This document shows, piece after piece, positions 22,869-39,993 of a stretch of 48,350 nucleotides of DNA. The stretch spans positions 1 through 48,350 of the forward strand of contig JAJXUD010000032.1 in the NCBI GenBank assembly GCA_021783235.1, read 5' to 3'. Position 1 is the stretch's first letter, and every line of letters begins with the position of its first letter. The DNA is from Myxococcales bacterium. Its GTDB lineage: Bacteria > Myxococcota > Myxococcia > Myxococcales > JAKAPL01. Position numbers and translations under genes: made by a program. The notes beneath the pieces are model-generated. The model ran no database searches. It was not told the origin of the DNA and worked only from the letters and a program-made list of their open reading frames with translations.

Positions 22869-23249
22869 TCAGAGCGGCTGCGGGCTCAGCTCGGCCGCGG
22901 AGGCGGCGTAGACCGCCCGCTCGAGCGCCTCGAGCTCGAAGGGCGCCGCCAGCGTGGCGCTGGCCCCCATCTCGTGGGCCCGGCTCGCCTGGCTGCGCGG
23001 GTCGGTCATGAGGCAGACGATCAGTGCCCCCCAGGCCCTCAGAAATAGGGCCTCTTCGACCTCGCCCGCCGGGTCGAGCGGCAGGTAGAAGATCCCCGCC
23101 TGCGGCTCGAACTGCTCGGCCAGCGCGCATCGCTGGCCGACCGGGAGCCGATGGTCGCAGAGCTGGACCTGGTCTCCATTCTGCGTGAAGACGTAGGAGA
23201 TCGCTTCGATGACTTCGCAGGCGTCCGGACCACACAGCACGAGCCGCAT
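22869..23249 (-). CDS. Small cytoplasmic protein, possibly a degenerate receiver domain
   Basis: A 126-residue protein without signal peptide. The pattern MRLVLCGPDACEVIEAISYV at the start and DPRSQASRAHEMGASATLAA, then PFELEALERAVYAAS at the end resembles the beta1-alpha1 and beta5-alpha5 parts of a response-regulator receiver. The conserved Lys is replaced (LAAPFE) and no clear phospho-acceptor Asp is present, so it would be a phosphorylation-independent version. The start ATG at 23249 has a G-rich stretch 6 nt upstream; a GTG at 23297 is possible. A strong promoter lies at 23331-23359, leaving a leader of roughly 75 nt. The receiver reading is an inference from pattern only. Confidence 0.65.
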   Translation of the reverse strand: MRLVLCGPDACEVIEAISYVFTQNGDQVQLCDHRLPVGQRCALAEQFEPQAGIFYLPLDPAGEVEEALFLRAWGALIVCLMTDPRSQASRAHEMGASATLAAPFELEALERAVYAASAAELSPQPL

Positions 23250-23330
23250 CGGTTCCCCCCGGAACTCGAACTCACCCCGGGCGTCGGGGCCCCGCACTCC
23301 TGTGAAAAAAGGACTTCACTACCCGAACGG

Positions 23331-23359
23331 ATTGTAACGAGGGGCCGGCTGCTTGCCAA
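23331..23359 (-). promoter_or_regulatory. Promoter of the receiver-like gene
   Basis: On the minus strand TTGGCA (23354-23359), a 17-bp spacer and a perfect TACAAT (23331-23336). The transcript would carry a leader of about 75 nt containing GTGAA...TTCAC around a T run. Confidence 0.75.
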
Positions 23360-23374
23360 GGGGAAGACGCCCTC

Positions 23375-23896
23375 TCAGCGCCTCTTCTTCTCGATCGGCT
23401 GGCCGTCGGCGCCGAGCACGACCACCCGGAGCTGCCCGGTCGACCGGATCGCCTGCCGCTGCCGCGCGCCCATCGTGTGCCGCTCGGCCCGCGTCAGCTT
23501 GCCCTGCGCGCTGGCGGCGAGCTGCGTCTCGGGGGAGGGCCGCTTGCGCCGCGCGGGGCGGATCCCGAAGTGGACGAGCTCGGCGTTCGAGGCGCCGAAC
23601 TTCAGCTTGATGAGCGTGGGCAGGTTGCGGACCCACGGCTCGGCGGCGAGCACGGCCGCCTCGAGCGCGACGAGCTTCTGGCGCGCCGCGACGAGGGCGT
23701 CCCGCTGCTCCTCGCGCCTCTCTTCGACGGCCCGGAGGAGCGAGAGCAGCGCGCTCGTCGTGACCGTCTTTCCCTCGACCTCGATCGGGCCGAAGCTCGC
23801 GCCGAAGCGGGCGAGCCCGCCGGCGAGGGCCCGGGCCCTCTTCTCGAAGCCGTGCTCGATCGCGTACTGCGCCCGGTTCCTCGCCCTTCTCGGCAT
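23375..23896 (-). CDS. Small basic helical protein next to a tandem-repeat array
   Basis: A 173-residue protein with no signal peptide, membrane segment or known catalytic motif. The N-terminus is Arg-rich (MPRRARNRAQYAIEHGFEKR). Residues about 45-90 are a long amphipathic, coiled-coil-like helix (LLRAVEERREEQRDALVAAR). A conserved-looking block follows, LKFGASNAELVHFGIRP, then a basic linker and LTRAERHTMGARQRQAIRST. The tail reads GQLRVVVLGADGQPI, then KKRR. From memory, proteins with the TR-RHTMG-RQ block occur in several copies in Myxococcota, Acidobacteria and Planctomycetes with no assigned function; I cannot verify this. GGAGG is 9 nt before the ATG. TAGAAT at 23920-23925 (minus) could be its -10 box, with the -35 region inside the last repeat unit. 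Confidence 0.75.
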   Translation of the reverse strand: MPRRARNRAQYAIEHGFEKRARALAGGLARFGASFGPIEVEGKTVTTSALLSLLRAVEERREEQRDALVAARQKLVALEAAVLAAEPWVRNLPTLIKLKFGASNAELVHFGIRPARRKRPSPETQLAASAQGKLTRAERHTMGARQRQAIRSTGQLRVVVLGADGQPIEKKRR

Positions 23897-23930
23897 CGCG
23901 CGGGACCTCCAGGGCCCCCATTCTACCTCA

Positions 23931-24182
23931 GGGTGCCGGCACCAAGGGCTCGAAGTGACCCCGGCGAGCGACGGGTGCCGGCCCCAGCGGCTCGAAGCTG
24001 CTCTGGCGCACGACAGGTGCCGGCCCCAACGGCTCGAAGTGACCCCGGCGAGCCTCGGGTGCCGGCCCCAACGGCTCGAAGCTACTCTGGTGAACGACAG
24101 GGGCCGGCCCCAACGGCTCGAGGCCGCCCCGGCGAGCGACGGGTGCCGGCACCAGCCGCTCGAAGCGCCCTTCCTCGAGCTC
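23931..24182. repeat. Six-unit 42-bp tandem array with alternating variants
   Basis: Six head-to-tail units of exactly 42 bp start at 23931, 23973, 24015, 24057, 24099 and 24141. Each has a conserved ~25-bp core (GGTGCCGGCCCCAACGGCTC then GAAG, plus strand) and a ~17-bp segment that alternates. Units 1, 3 and 5 carry the CCCCGGCGAGC form; units 2 and 4 carry the CT-CTCTGG form; unit 6 has diverged. The array begins 8 bp after the stop of the lipoprotein gene and ends 34 bp before the small basic protein gene, both on the minus strand. Because 42 is a multiple of 3, several frames stay open; none has its own start codon. Confidence 0.95.
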
Positions 24183-24190
24183 GGTGAAGC

Positions 24191-26971
24191 CTAGCGGACG
24201 GCGTGCAGCAGGCCGTCGTCCGAGACGAAGAAGACCGTGCCGTCGGGGCCGATGGCGGGGGACGAGCTGATCCGGCCGTGGGTCGCGAGCTTGAAGCGCT
24301 GCGAGCCGTCGGGGTTGACCGCGTAGAACGTGCCGTCGGCCGTGCCGAAGAAGATCGTTCCGTCGCCGCCGATGGCGACGGCCGTGTCGAGGTCGGAGGA
24401 GGTCTTGAAGGGGAAGCCCGACTTCAGGCTGCCGGTCGCGCCGTCCACCGCGTAGAGGCCGTCGACGTTGCCGACGTAGACGGTGCCGTCGGCGGCGATG
24501 GCGGGGGCCGAGTTGCCGACGTCGGCGTTGAAGAGGCCGGAGCCGGTGAAGGGGCTGAAGTTGCCGGGCGTCGTCCCCGACGGCATGCCGTTGAAGACCC
24601 AGTGCTGCTGCCCGTTCGCGGGGTCGATGGCGGCGAGCGTCGTCTGCCCGCTGTTGCCGGTCTGCGTGCCGACCTCGATCATGAGCCAGCCCGTGTGCTG
24701 CTCGTCGTAGGCGAGGTCGGAGTTCTGGAGGAAGCCGCCGCCGGAGCCGACCGTGACGCCCGCGGCGGGCCAGGCCGGGATGGCCTGGAAGCCGGACTCG
24801 GGGGCGGTGACGCCGAAGCAGAGGGCGCCGCAGCACCAGTAGCTCTGGTCGTTCTGATCGATGGCGACCGCGACCCGCTCCATGCCCCAGGGCAGGATCA
24901 GCGTGTTCGACTGGGTGAGGCTGCCGTTCGAGCCGGTCTGGTAGGTGACCGTCTGGCCGAAGTCGTCCCCGTCGAACAGAAGGCCGTCCTGGCCGATGCT
25001 GGGGTTCACGTCGAAGCCGTCGGCGCCCTGGCAGCCGCCGCTCGAGTTCCCGTTGGCGGCGTTGCTGCCGCCCGCGGCGCAGCCGGTCGGGGGGCCGATC
25101 TGGAAGAGGATCTTTCCGGTGGCGGAATCGATGTGGTAGAGCTGCGCCGGCTGCATGCTCGCCGAATCCGTCCCCGACTCGAGGTAGATCGTGCCGTCGG
25201 CGGCGAGGATCGGCGTCGCCGGGTGCTCGTCGGGGTTCGGCGCGAGCAGCGAGTCCTTCCAGAGGATGTTCCCGCCGGGGTCGACGGCGACGAAGGTGCC
25301 GTCCATCCCGAGCTGGTAGACCGTCCCGTCGGGCCCGACGATGGGGGAGTTCAGGTAGCTCGGGTTCGGGTTGACCATTCCCTCCATGCCGCCCGCGCTC
25401 TGCGGCACGGCGAGCTGCACGGTCCAGAGCTCGGTCCCCTGGTTCGCCGAGGTGTCGGCCTGGCTGCGCCCCTGGTCCGTGTTGTCGGCGTGCCACTTCG
25501 GCCAGCCGTCGGCGTAGGGGCCGCTTCCCTTGACGTAGGCGGAGAGCGGCACCGCGCCGTTCGCCCGCACCGGGTCGTTGCTCTGGAAGACGATGCGGCC
25601 CGTGTGCAGGAGCGGCGTCCCGCTGGAGGTGAGATCGCAGGTCACGGCGATGGTCGTGCTCTGCGCCGGATGGATCGTGAGGCTCGCGGCCTGGGCCGGG
25701 TCGAGGGTGAAGGCCGGGTCCGTCCCGGGGGAGAGGCCGATCCCGCTGACGGCGCAGTCCTGGGCCCCGCTGTTCGTGAGGGTCACGGACTTCGTGACCG
25801 CCGTGCCGACGCCCGGGTTGCCGAAGTTGATCGACGGCGGCTGGATCGCGAGGGTGCACGGGTTCGGCTTGCCGTTCCCGAAGAGCTGGTCGGTCGCGAG
25901 CTCGGCCGGCACCTGAGCCTGTTGTCCCCCCGCGAGGAGGGGCTGGGTGACCGCCGTCAGAACGTCCTGGTCGTTGCCGGTCTGGCTCGCCGTGTAGGAG
26001 ACGGTCGCGGTGACGCTCGCGCCCGGCAGGATCGTCTGCGGCAGCGCGAACGACTCGCTCACGGAGAAGGGGCTCTGCGGGTTCTGCGTCGTCAGGCTCG
26101 TCAGCGCGACCGCCGCGAGCCCCTGGTTCGTGAGGGTGACCTGCTGCGAGCTGTTCGTGCCCACCGGCACGTTCAGGAAGGAGACCGGGCTCGGGGAGAA
26201 GACGATCTGCCCGTCGACGCCGACGCCGCTGAGCGAGATCTGCTGCGGGTTGCAGGTCGCGCAGTCGAGGTAGGGGAGCAGCGCGCTCGCGGGGCCCTGC
26301 TGCCCGGGAGTGAAGGTGATCTGGAGGGTGAAGGAGCCATTGGCCTGAATCGGGCCGGGCGTCCCCGTCCAGCCGAAGGCCGACGCCTGGGTGCCCACGA
26401 TCGGCTGGACCTGGATCGGGCTCGAGGCGTCGGTCCCCGTGTTCGAGAAGGTCACGGCCAGGGTGGCGAAGGTCCCGACCTGGACGTTGCCGAAGTCGAG
26501 GGTCGTGGGCTTCACCCCGATGACGATGTTGCTGCCGTTGCCTCGGAGCGGCACCGTGTAGCTGGGCAGCGCGTTGCTGTTCGACTGGATGGTCAGCGTC
26601 CCGGTCTGCTCCCCGGTCTGCGCGGGCTGGAACTCGATGTAGATCGTCGCCTTCGCTCCCGCCTGGAGGCTGCTCCCGAAGGGCGCGTGGACGTTCGTGG
26701 TCTCGGTGAACGAGAACTCCGCGGGGCCGCTCTGCCCCTGGGTGAGCGAGACGGCCGAGATCGCGAGGTCGAGCGATCCCGTGTTCGTCAGGGTGACGGG
26801 GAGCACCTTGCGCTCGCCCACCGGGACGTCGCCGAAGTCCACCGGGTTCGGCGAGGCGGACGGGTGAGAGTCCTTCGAGACGAGCTGTCCCGCCCGATGC
26901 TGGCAGCCTCCGCAGCCCGGGGCGACCGCGACGAGGGTGAGCGCGAGCAGTCGCGAGATCGATCGGTTCAT
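24191..26971 (-). CDS. Lipoprotein with ASH (HYDIN-like) domains and PQQ-like beta-propeller
   Basis: A 926-residue lipoprotein; the signal ends at APGC (about Cys18). Residues about 40-490 hold four or more ASH/choice-of-anchor-D immunoglobulin-like domains, each with a PSSVxFGNVxVGT-type start (NPVDFGDVPVGE, TLDFGNVQVGT, PVSFLNVPVGT, SINFGNPGVGT). The C-terminal half is a beta-propeller of PQQ-like blades recurring as GPDGTVY, AADGTIY, GQDGLLF, AADGTVYVGNVDGLYAVD and GGDGTIFFGTADGTFYAV. It is probably an envelope binding or scaffold protein. No PQQ-enzyme catalytic residues are evident. The ATG at 26971 has GGAGG 7 nt upstream; an upstream in-frame start (27007) would spoil the signal peptide. 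The stop is followed at once by the 42-bp array. Confidence 0.85.
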   Translation of the reverse strand: MNRSISRLLALTLVAVAPGCGGCQHRAGQLVSKDSHPSASPNPVDFGDVPVGERKVLPVTLTNTGSLDLAISAVSLTQGQSGPAEFSFTETTNVHAPFGSSLQAGAKATIYIEFQPAQTGEQTGTLTIQSNSNALPSYTVPLRGNGSNIVIGVKPTTLDFGNVQVGTFATLAVTFSNTGTDASSPIQVQPIVGTQASAFGWTGTPGPIQANGSFTLQITFTPGQQGPASALLPYLDCATCNPQQISLSGVGVDGQIVFSPSPVSFLNVPVGTNSSQQVTLTNQGLAAVALTSLTTQNPQSPFSVSESFALPQTILPGASVTATVSYTASQTGNDQDVLTAVTQPLLAGGQQAQVPAELATDQLFGNGKPNPCTLAIQPPSINFGNPGVGTAVTKSVTLTNSGAQDCAVSGIGLSPGTDPAFTLDPAQAASLTIHPAQSTTIAVTCDLTSSGTPLLHTGRIVFQSNDPVRANGAVPLSAYVKGSGPYADGWPKWHADNTDQGRSQADTSANQGTELWTVQLAVPQSAGGMEGMVNPNPSYLNSPIVGPDGTVYQLGMDGTFVAVDPGGNILWKDSLLAPNPDEHPATPILAADGTIYLESGTDSASMQPAQLYHIDSATGKILFQIGPPTGCAAGGSNAANGNSSGGCQGADGFDVNPSIGQDGLLFDGDDFGQTVTYQTGSNGSLTQSNTLILPWGMERVAVAIDQNDQSYWCCGALCFGVTAPESGFQAIPAWPAAGVTVGSGGGFLQNSDLAYDEQHTGWLMIEVGTQTGNSGQTTLAAIDPANGQQHWVFNGMPSGTTPGNFSPFTGSGLFNADVGNSAPAIAADGTVYVGNVDGLYAVDGATGSLKSGFPFKTSSDLDTAVAIGGDGTIFFGTADGTFYAVNPDGSQRFKLATHGRISSSPAIGPDGTVFFVSDDGLLHAVR

Positions 26972-27054
26972 CGGGTGCCTCCGCCACGAAGAAATTTCGG
27001 GATCCATACCAGCGGCGCCCTCGAAAGGACAGCCCCTCGTGCTAAGGGTTCGCC

Positions 27055-38922: not shown

Positions 38923-39993
38923 ATGCCGTCTTTGCCACCTCGCGGGGCCCTCGCGGGCCTCGGCGTCGCCCTTGCCTTGGGCGCGCTCGCCGCCTGCTCG
39001 CCGGCGACGCCGAGCGGCCCTTGCCAGTTCGACGCGGACTGCCCGGCCGGCGACCACTGCCACCTCGGCCAGTGCTACGCGCCGGTGGTCGGCGCGGGCT
39101 CCACCTCCGGCGGGGGGAGCGCTTCCAGCAGCGGGACGACCGGCAGCAGCGGCGGCACGACGGGCGCGACGTCGACCGGGGGCGGCACGGGCTCGACCAG
39201 CGGCGGCACGACGGGGGCAGGGAGCAGCGGCGGCGGCAGCACGACGAGCAGCGGGGGCACGACCAGCGGTGGGAGCTCGACCAGCGGCAGCGGCACGAGC
39301 GGCGGCAGCACGACCAGCGGCAGCGGCACGAGCGGTGGGAGCACGACCAGCGGCAGCGGCACGAGCGGCGGGAGCACCTCGGGCGGCTCGACCTCGGGCG
39401 GCTCGACCTCCGGTGGCAGCGGCGGAGCTCCCGTGACCTGCTCGGCGCCGAGCACGAGCTACCAGCAGAACGGCGGCAGCTGCGGCTCCGAGCGCTGGGA
39501 CATCAAGGTCGGGACCGATCCAGAGGCTCCGAACGTCAGCCTCGTGCCCCAGCCGACGACGATCCAGCAGCTCGTCAGCCTGCCCGCAAGCCCTGGCGGC
39601 AGCTGCACGCGAAACGATCCCACCGAGCTGACCACCTTCGAGCTGACCAACGTGAACCTCCACTTCGTGAGGCTCGAGGCCGACAGCGACTACCACCTGG
39701 TCGCCTCGGACGGAAACGGGAACACGATGATCGTGGAGGTCCCGTACCCCGGCTGCGTCAAGTCCGTGAACTGCTCGGGCGGCGGGACCCCCTTTCTCTG
39801 CGACATCACGCATTCTCGAGCCACCGCCGACGCGATCTACTCCTCCCGCCAGGACCAGATCGGCACCGTCATCGGCGTCGGCTTCTTCGACACCCTCCAC
39901 GGCCAGACCGGCGTGGCGCCGAACGGGATCGAGCTCCACCCGGTGCTGGCCCTCTGCTTCGGCCAGGGCTGCGACCCGCTGCAGGGCTACTGA
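38923..39993 (+). CDS. Lipoprotein with Ser/Thr/Gly-rich stalk
   Basis: A 356-residue lipoprotein. The lipobox LAAC (Cys26) is followed by a small Cys-rich knot (PCQFDADCPAGDHCHLGQC), a very common motif in myxobacterial surface proteins. Residues about 50-165 are a low-complexity stalk of TSGGST/GSGTSGG units encoded by imperfect 18-24-bp repeats. The C-terminal domain (about 170-356) has four or more cysteines (SCGSERWDIKVGTD, NCSGGGTPFLCD) and ends in CFGQGCDPLQGY. The C-terminal domain is of unknown function; the layout is anchor, stalk, then binding domain. The ATG at 38923 has CCGGAG upstream. Confidence 0.8.
   Translation: MPSLPPRGALAGLGVALALGALAACSPATPSGPCQFDADCPAGDHCHLGQCYAPVVGAGSTSGGGSASSSGTTGSSGGTTGATSTGGGTGSTSGGTTGAGSSGGGSTTSSGGTTSGGSSTSGSGTSGGSTTSGSGTSGGSTTSGSGTSGGSTSGGSTSGGSTSGGSGGAPVTCSAPSTSYQQNGGSCGSERWDIKVGTDPEAPNVSLVPQPTTIQQLVSLPASPGGSCTRNDPTELTTFELTNVNLHFVRLEADSDYHLVASDGNGNTMIVEVPYPGCVKSVNCSGGGTPFLCDITHSRATADAIYSSRQDQIGTVIGVGFFDTLHGQTGVAPNGIELHPVLALCFGQGCDPLQGY

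Follow-up and report, generated by a model that had tools for sequence, protein, structure and literature searches.

Tandem arrays with a 21- to 22-bp step accompany a dispersed bacterial gene family on its upstream side

In the window, as we call the whole stretch of 48,350 nucleotides of Myxococcales DNA analyzed here, a tandem array occupies the intergenic space between two minus-strand genes, 35 bp from the start of a gene for a 173-aa protein (Table 1). The original prediction described two alternating unit types with palindromic cores in this array and suspected selection for pairing or for a dimeric binding site. Does the array belong to the gene that it precedes, and what might it do there?

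The array and its adjacent gene

TRF reported the array both as 5.6 copies of 42 bp at 23931-24165 (score 279) and as 2.8 copies of 84 bp at 23932-24166 (score 365, 88% matches), the second reading outscoring the first. When the units are cut at 23932, 38 of 42 bases are common to the unit pairs 1-3 and 2-4, while neighboring units among the first five have 31 to 33 identical bases. Within an 18-bp variable segment, 13 to 16 bases are common to units 1, 3, and 5 and 15 to units 2 and 4, and odd-even pairs have just 8 to 12 in common. The predicted alternation of two unit types with an 84-bp period is borne out by these scores and identities. The observed alternation statistic is reached by 4 of the 120 orders of units 1 to 5, the observed order included; with five units it is suggestive and on its own not strong. 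Unit 6 is degenerate.

TABLE 1 Features of the window at and around the array
Feature	Position	Strand	Basis
Gene for a 173-aa protein of an uncharacterized dispersed family, with the array in front of its start codon	23375..23896	-	Open reading frame and family search
Putative Shine-Dalgarno-like GGAGGT, 8 nt before the ATG	23905..23910	-	Read from sequence
TAGAAT, possible -10 element at the array end that faces the gene	23920..23925	-	Read from sequence
Tandem array, 42-bp units in 84-bp alternation	23932..24166	.	TRF and unit comparison
Array unit starts (five full units, sixth partial)	23932, 23974, 24016, 24058, 24100, 24142		
Array and gene, aligning in register with the sister copy on contig C105 (10541-11232)	23374..24147	-	Alignment
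Next gene upstream (context only); its 938-aa product has ASH/HYDIN-type Ig-like and PQQ/beta-propeller domains	24191..27007	-	

The palindromes were also described correctly: GGTGCCGGCACC in units 1 and 6 and GGGGCCGGCCCC in unit 5 are perfect 12-bp palindromes, and the core of units 2 to 4 pairs at five of six positions, leaving one mismatched pair. The further claim that both arms had changed in unit 5 fails against its neighbors 2 to 4, from which unit 5 differs by a single change (T to G). The double change holds solely relative to units 1 and 6. The form of the core seen most often is the mismatched intermediate, present in three of the six units here and in four of the five well-formed units of the sister array. 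Perfect 12-bp palindromes number 46 in the window and 364 in 400,020 bp of the same genome, about one per kilobase; those of the array are real yet ordinary for the surrounding DNA. Dyad symmetry with 10-pair arms was not significant in the consensus of the window array (p = 0.74).

The sister array, on contig C105 of the same genome, is 81% identical and adjoins a decayed copy of the 173-aa gene. The two copies align from 24147, in the partial last unit, to the stop codon with 82 to 88% identity and a gap within the gene, and their flanks outside the aligned extent are without match. It follows that array and gene were duplicated together, as a single unit.

The TAGAAT listed in Table 1 as a possible -10 element was not among the output of a promoter consensus scan. 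A sigma-70-like promoter match (TTGGCA-17-TACAAT, 10 of 12 positions) lies elsewhere in the window, at 23331-23359 on the minus strand, just upstream of the minus-strand open reading frame (ORF) 22869-23297. Another repeat block, at 39126-39377, has periods of 18, 33, 51, and 66 bp and lies inside long ORFs; it probably represents coding repeats.

Searching the window's genome with the 173-aa protein gave 30 matches: the protein itself, four that are pieces of the C105 copy, and 25 further ones with 25 to 48% identity. In an alignment of 20 family members, the N-terminal part is helical and variable, and a basic motif with the consensus TRxxRGTxGKRQK stands out; the 50-residue C-terminal stretch from an FG-like motif on has a mean charge of +9.5 (69 members). 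At the limits used, Pfam, NCBIfam, PHROGs, and PADLOC all returned nothing for the window protein. PHROGs gave no match for the family, and those in the other databases were weak and each confined to one of the 20 members (best E values of 0.0079 in Pfam, 0.0023 in NCBIfam, and 0.0004 in PADLOC). Models of two members (pLDDT 83.6 and 82.2; pTM 0.48 and 0.49) have a predicted fold of a helix, a beta hairpin, a 54-residue helix, and a short helix, followed at the C terminus by a helix that coincides with the basic motif. A sequence search of the PDB gave a best E value of 0.24, and Foldseek returned nothing at E ≤ 0.001 in PDB (model of the window protein) or BFVD (model of the L162 protein). 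The best VIA-align Z scores, 5.2 and 5.1, belong to short helical pieces and lie below the meaningful level for helical models. No DNA-binding domain was recognizable by Pfam, NCBIfam, PDB sequence, or fold search. dN/dS was below 1 (0.18 to 0.88) in 17 of the 18 close gene pairs with a defined ratio and 1.11 in the other, and the family proteins thus appear to be under purifying, sometimes relaxed, selection.

Arrays upstream of the family genes

The family is patchy in distribution and present in multiple copies. Matches were found in 7 of 195 genomes of the window's phylum; they are strong in five, which have 34, 15, 42, 14, and 2 matches, fragments included. A name-giving scan limited to one motif returned 17 loci from Myxococcales or Polyangiaceae metagenome-assembled genomes (MAGs), one "Proteobacteria bacterium" MAG, and one "bacterium" (JACQDU, groundwater); six of these genomes, reached via their loci, have 19, 5, 1, 23, 7, and 14 matches. 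In the phylum of the JACQDU genome (G196), matches were found in 2 of 294 and 2 of 392 genomes, each time G196 and one weak match; since more genomes were drawn from this group than the window's phylum holds, it is apparently a second phylum. These scans scored at most 17, 11, and 8 candidates per genome in the 195-, 294-, and 392-genome sets, respectively, and weak members may be missed. Similar proteins presumably also occur in Acidobacteria and Planctomycetes. Two motif-limited scans of viral contigs revealed no relative, and plasmids had no match to the window protein or to the stretch resembling an insertion sequence (IS) end that is described below.

Family loci (L numbers) were picked solely for protein similarity, turned so that the gene set their orientation, and searched with TRF. 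Of 80 loci in five genomes, 39 have an array of at least 80 bp within 1.5 kb upstream of the gene, with a shortest period of 21 or 42 bp in 38 of them, and seven have one downstream, with mixed periods. This count excludes the decayed C105 copy (L026) as well as L029, L031, L033, and L036, which are the same loci as L141, L138, L139, and L140. At 45 loci of other genomes, some of them represented twice, 31 arrays were found upstream (shortest periods of 42, 21, 66, 43, 132, and 65 bp) and 5 downstream.

With repeats removed, an array with a period of the 21n or 22n type (43, 64, 65, and 85 to 87 bp also accepted) lies upstream at 59 of 103 loci with at least 500 bp of upstream sequence and downstream at 4 of 109 (11 genomes; Fisher P = 2.6e-19). 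Removal by a rule of 80 identical bases reduced 125 loci to 114, dropping seven records of places represented twice and also four real recent copies (L034, L051, and L087 with arrays, L140 without); by reckoning, the fuller upstream count would be 62 of 107. The scan covered the family matches whose locus sequence was retrieved, apart from some fragments in the window's own genome (e.g., L142 and L143). An autocorrelation analysis independent of TRF detected periodicity (z > 7) upstream of 59 loci and downstream of 3, the upstream lags being 42 (36 loci), 21 (15), 63 (4), 43 (2), 22 (1), and 44 bp (1). Ten more loci reached z values of 5.5 to 7 upstream, nine of them at lags of 21, 22, 42, or 63 bp.

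Each of the 11 genomes has at least one upstream array, from 9 of 9 loci in G198 to 11 of 30 in G002; the window's genome has one at 15 of 23 loci. Some of the 44 loci that lack a TRF array of such a period (19 of them in G002) show weaker 21-, 42-, or 63-bp periodicity. In 448 kb of the window's genome, an array is present at six of eight family genes, a figure that is not an independent estimate because the contigs were partly chosen for known family genes. The same 448 kb contain seven other arrays with such periods, of which three (66, 132, and 168 bp; 1.9 to 2.6 copies) may be coincidental, and further arrays of at least 80 bp with varied periods, from 12 to 54 and 120 bp. The arrays have no strand bias relative to the gene (G > C in 26 of 65, P = 0.10; A > T in 30 of 65, P = 0.71; duplicates were removed from this set by hand, and one pair, L158 and L170, is still inside). 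The arrays thus go with the family gene and stand on its upstream side, an association that we found in none of the titles and abstract openings listed by literature searches (bioRxiv and most subscription journals were outside their scope).

Other features were seen near some family genes. Companion ORFs of ~110 to 225 aa occur in operon-like position within ~1.2 kb upstream of the family gene at L043, L089, L094, and L109 (one cluster), at L052 and L086 (another), and at L050 (by eye), several of them with an LRSRP-like motif and a DEPWP/DEPFPV-like end. In genome G003, related ORFs lie ~0.6 to 1.4 kb after the start of the family match at L118, L121, and L123 (three of the nine loci retrieved from this genome); with their VHHIFPFH motif, they resemble HNH-type proteins. 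At five loci (L035, L041, L046, L049, and L084), complementary stretches such as GAAGACC ... GGTCTTC were seen by eye in the leader that precedes the start codon, and this 5' leader may be structured.

The conserved step and its possible explanations

The base step of the arrays is 21 bp, of which 42, 63, 84, and 126 bp are multiples. Periods of 43 and 65 bp mix 21 and 22 bp, and one genome (G195) holds 21n arrays (L165, L169, and L180) together with 22n arrays (L149, L159, and L190). The period therefore appears to be set by about two helical turns and not by codons. In B-DNA, 21 to 22 bp correspond to two turns, which places successive units on the same helix side. The 42/84-bp alternation in the window is the local version of this general higher-order repeat. 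The original remark that the alternation is unlike simple slippage of one unit has support insofar as higher-order structure exists family-wide, but the deeper unit is 21 bp and not 42 bp.

We tentatively favor the explanation that these are phased, iteron-like docking arrays, each controlling the dispersed gene that it precedes and probably bound by the product of that gene, which we hold to be plausible rather than probable. The array would be the cis-acting half of a two-part dispersed chromosomal unit with the order array on a 21- to 22-bp step, promoter or short leader, family gene, and, in several copies, a terminator-like hairpin. Lined up on one helix side, the units would offer a phased docking surface to a protein, which is probably the product encoded by the adjacent gene, with its helices and basic tail, and the docked protein would set the expression of that gene. 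Docking is favored by the upstream position and step of the arrays, the enrichment of inverted repeats, the lack of RNA signatures and unique spacers, the promoter-like motif found between array and gene, the array kept ahead of an inserted companion ORF, the modeled protein with its basic tail, and the mostly low dN/dS. Several observations count against docking: the family protein has no recognizable DNA-binding domain, 44 of the 103 loci are without a TRF array of this kind, orphan arrays and gene copies without arrays exist, and a 10-pair-arm dyad test reached p < 0.05 in just 10 of 63 arrays. Moreover, arrays that look unrelated at 50 to 70% protein identity would demand very fast coevolution of specificity if binding were sequence-specific. 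A wider reading, which we regard as doubtful, is that the loci form an undescribed class of gene-array units in which the two-turn step of the DNA is conserved instead of its sequence, a private satellite being combined with a protein tuned to it or one that reads or makes the step. As part of that reading, and with the same doubt, such units might be the bacterial counterpart of rapidly turning-over satellite arrays and their binders.

Turnover of the arrays is fast. L138 and L139 are 97.7% identical in the gene region, while their arrays match at 77 to 83%; for L050 and L051, the corresponding values are 99.0% in the gene region and ~78 to 83% in the upstream part with the array. Among protein pairs of at least 70% identity, 12 of 15 array pairs share a 42-mer with at least 28 matches (11 of 14 without the duplicate record, L158/L170), and such 42-mers are shared by 1 of 16 array pairs at 50 to 70% protein identity and by 21 of 862 below 30%. 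At 50 to 70% protein identity, the arrays thus look unrelated, which indicates that their sequence is exchanged for another and only their position and step persist.

Turnover that so outpaces the gene is what the main rival explanation would predict, namely, that a near-neutral minisatellite hitchhikes in the dispersed unit and that the step reflects the way in which arrays expand and not a bound protein. Orphan arrays and the presence of five arrays at one and the same IS-end-like 25-mer (see below) point the same way, and the published account of the BrickBuilt element indicates that a 23-nt minisatellite can disperse intergenically (PMC4596501). We nevertheless consider hitchhiking unlikely: the arrays keep a strict upstream position and their step, but not their sequence, over 11 genomes of apparently two phyla, other arrays in the 448 kb have varied periods, and the rate of arrays at family genes is far above background.

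The boundaries of the dispersed unit bear on a different possibility, that arrays pre-exist upstream of various genes and serve as the target beside which the family unit or an IS inserts. As viewed by eye, near-identical copies (L138/L139, L032/L140, and L028/L030/L034) end past the gene at a terminator-like hairpin with a T-rich tail, beyond which the sequence is unrelated. Sharp boundaries between otherwise unrelated flanks, a feature of miniature inverted-repeat transposable elements (MITEs) and IS-type elements, are hence present here. Among these boundaries, inspected by eye for terminal inverted repeats and target-site duplications, no pair of terminal inverted repeats was recognized, and a 25-mer stands at one side of five arrays. 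L028/L030/L034 and L032/L140 have leader, gene, and terminator-like hairpin in common, but not the array; L140 and L028 have the gene and no array within 1.5 kb, which speaks against a strict unit, and some near-identical gene copies (L032/L140 and L028/L034) were made without it.

Orphan arrays were found as well. L194 is a copy of the upstream flank and array of L051 (87% over 851 bp) in which a recognizable gene is absent, L196 repeats the L039 array in inverted orientation (93% over 394 bp), and L196, L199, and L213 lie upstream of other predicted genes. Such arrays could be decayed units, trans-acting sites, or targets. L194 and L196 each adjoin the 25-mer TGTCAGGGATGT[AC]TTGACCTGTTCC, which we take to resemble an IS end. 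It occurs five times in genome G000 (C6:3840, C6:50010, C6:180720, C101:48359, and C120:8650), and a 21/42-bp array starts within ~36 bp of it at all five sites. Three of the copies share a further ~30 bp outside, and no complete element was recognized around the 25-mer in this genome.

The copies with a shared gene and unshared array, the orphans upstream of other genes, and the 25-mer at arrays in five of five cases all suit such a landing site. Against it, homologous arrays traveled with the gene in window/C105, L138/L139, L050/L051, L040/L042, and L175/L184, and orphan L194, being flank and array minus the gene, fits gene loss as well. On balance, arrays as pre-existing targets seem to us quite improbable.

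The unit envisaged under the docking explanation has features between array and gene. A 15-mer, TTGTCACGCTTTTCG, is present at 12 or more of 15 positions within 500 bp upstream of 12 of the 114 genes and downstream of one, and the reversed motif is found at none. In all eight of these 12 that have a TRF array (L032, L041, L045, L046, L117, L138, L139, and L141), it lies between array and gene. The motif, which the window copy does not share, may be part of a promoter. L050 differs from L051 by a 464-bp insertion that holds a 112-aa companion ORF. Since this insertion is located between array and gene, L050 has the array at the head of an operon.

A host factor other than the family product, such as a nucleoid, partition, or replication protein that needs phased DNA and little sequence, would account for a step conserved without sequence and for the orphan arrays. 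It would not be expected to tie the arrays to one gene family and to the upstream side of its genes, and we judge it very unlikely.

Symmetry within the units offers a further guide to what may read them. Perfect inverted arms of at least 6 bp are present in 22 of 61 arrays, compared with 8.3 expected from the flanks (P = 9.6e-6) and 6.3 from shuffled units; arms of at least 7 bp are present in 10 of 61, compared with 3.1 (P = 0.001) and 1.6, respectively. Relatedness among the arrays makes these P values somewhat too small; four of the 65 arrays, with a consensus identity below 0.7, were excluded from these and the pairing tests. When single arrays were compared with their shuffled units, 1, 4, 8, and 7 of 61 reached p < 0.05 for arms of 5, 6, 7, and 8 bp. 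The outcome for dyad symmetry thus depends on the statistic, the arm-count test being the stronger one as an aggregate.

In the 22 arrays with the clearest inverted repeats, G-T oppositions (67) were not above A-C oppositions (81; P = 0.29), and pair counting, used in place of R-scape, yielded 15 compensated and 337 uncompensated cells. As DNA, the units thus lean toward dyad symmetry, and nothing points to selection for hairpin RNA. The predicted covariation of the palindrome and selection for RNA pairing are not supported by these counts. The dimeric binding site fares better, inverted repeats being enriched across arrays, although the window array alone is not significant.

The same data render it highly improbable that the array is transcribed and processed into guide or hairpin RNAs, in the manner of CRISPR or TIGR arrays, with the gene encoding an RNA partner. 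TIGR arrays likewise alternate two repeat types and vary between loci (PMC12045711). Compared with shuffled sequences, folding of the window array is better on the minus strand (z = -2.89) and less so on the plus strand (z = -1.76), with the qualification that repeats fold well by themselves. Rfam gave no match up to E = 1 in 23000-25000, and G-U asymmetry is absent and compensated changes are few, and a structured-RNA array was dropped on these grounds. A guide array was dropped as well because spacer blocks were not found: a block test of the variable columns, covering 55 of the 65 arrays, gave p < 0.05 in nine (combined P = 6e-5, mild clustering), variation is mostly scattered, and no layout of repeats and unique spacers was seen in the arrays. 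Pfam detected no Nop domain in the 20 members. Finally, a coding repeat of 7 or 14 residues (21 bp being seven codons) is barely credible and was dropped, since arrays of 22, 43, 44, and 66 bp at the same family would shift the frame from unit to unit and 22n and 21n arrays coexist in one genome, even if several 21/42-bp arrays have an open frame, which is common for GC-rich repeats in multiples of three.

Significance and comparison with known systems

With up to 42 matches per genome, the unstudied family described here offers many upstream arrays that conserve their step. Should a protein read them, nature would have provided a library of orthogonal DNA-binding pairs, all set on a fixed helical lattice, and the coevolution of satellite DNA and its binders could be studied in a tractable bacterial model. 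Should nothing read them, the strict 21- to 22-bp step would need a growth mechanism that measures two turns of DNA.

Among described elements, the BrickBuilt MITE of Porphyromonas gingivalis contains a 23-nt minisatellite, is intergenic, occurs 19 times in one strain, and has IS-like ends (PMC4596501). It is similar in being an intergenic minisatellite that is dispersed within an element with IS-like ends; it differs in that it is described as a MITE without a transposase and is built on a single 23-nt repeat (PMC4596501), while each family locus has its own array and the gene is constant. In TIGR arrays, edge and loop repeats alternate, unique spacers are ~9 nt long, and a Nop-domain protein is encoded nearby (PMC12045711). 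An array beside one gene, two alternating repeat types, and repeats that differ by locus are common to both systems; unlike TIGR arrays, the family arrays have no 9-nt unique spacers and stand on the upstream side only. A very divergent Nop domain would escape the Pfam search that yielded no match in the 20 members. The family arrays also differ from CRISPR arrays, as they lack identical repeats combined with unique spacers of constant length.

RAYTs are chromosomal Y1 transposases tied to dispersed, palindrome-prone REP repeats. The family resembles them as a chromosomal gene with dispersed, palindrome-prone repeats and with orphan repeats elsewhere, and differs in that Pfam and NCBIfam detect no Y1 transposase domain and that its arrays are tandem with a fixed step.

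In iteron plasmids, direct repeats with a step of roughly two turns lie beside the Rep gene and are specific to each copy. The family differs in being chromosomal and dispersed, with no plasmid match found for the window protein. The family proteins gave no convincing match to a winged-helix Rep initiator, or to any other family, in Pfam or NCBIfam and no close match among folds, in searches that cannot exclude a fold. What the family arrays have in common with the iteron-Rep arrangement is the tandem direct repeat with a step of about two turns, specific to each copy and next to a gene whose product is the presumed binder.
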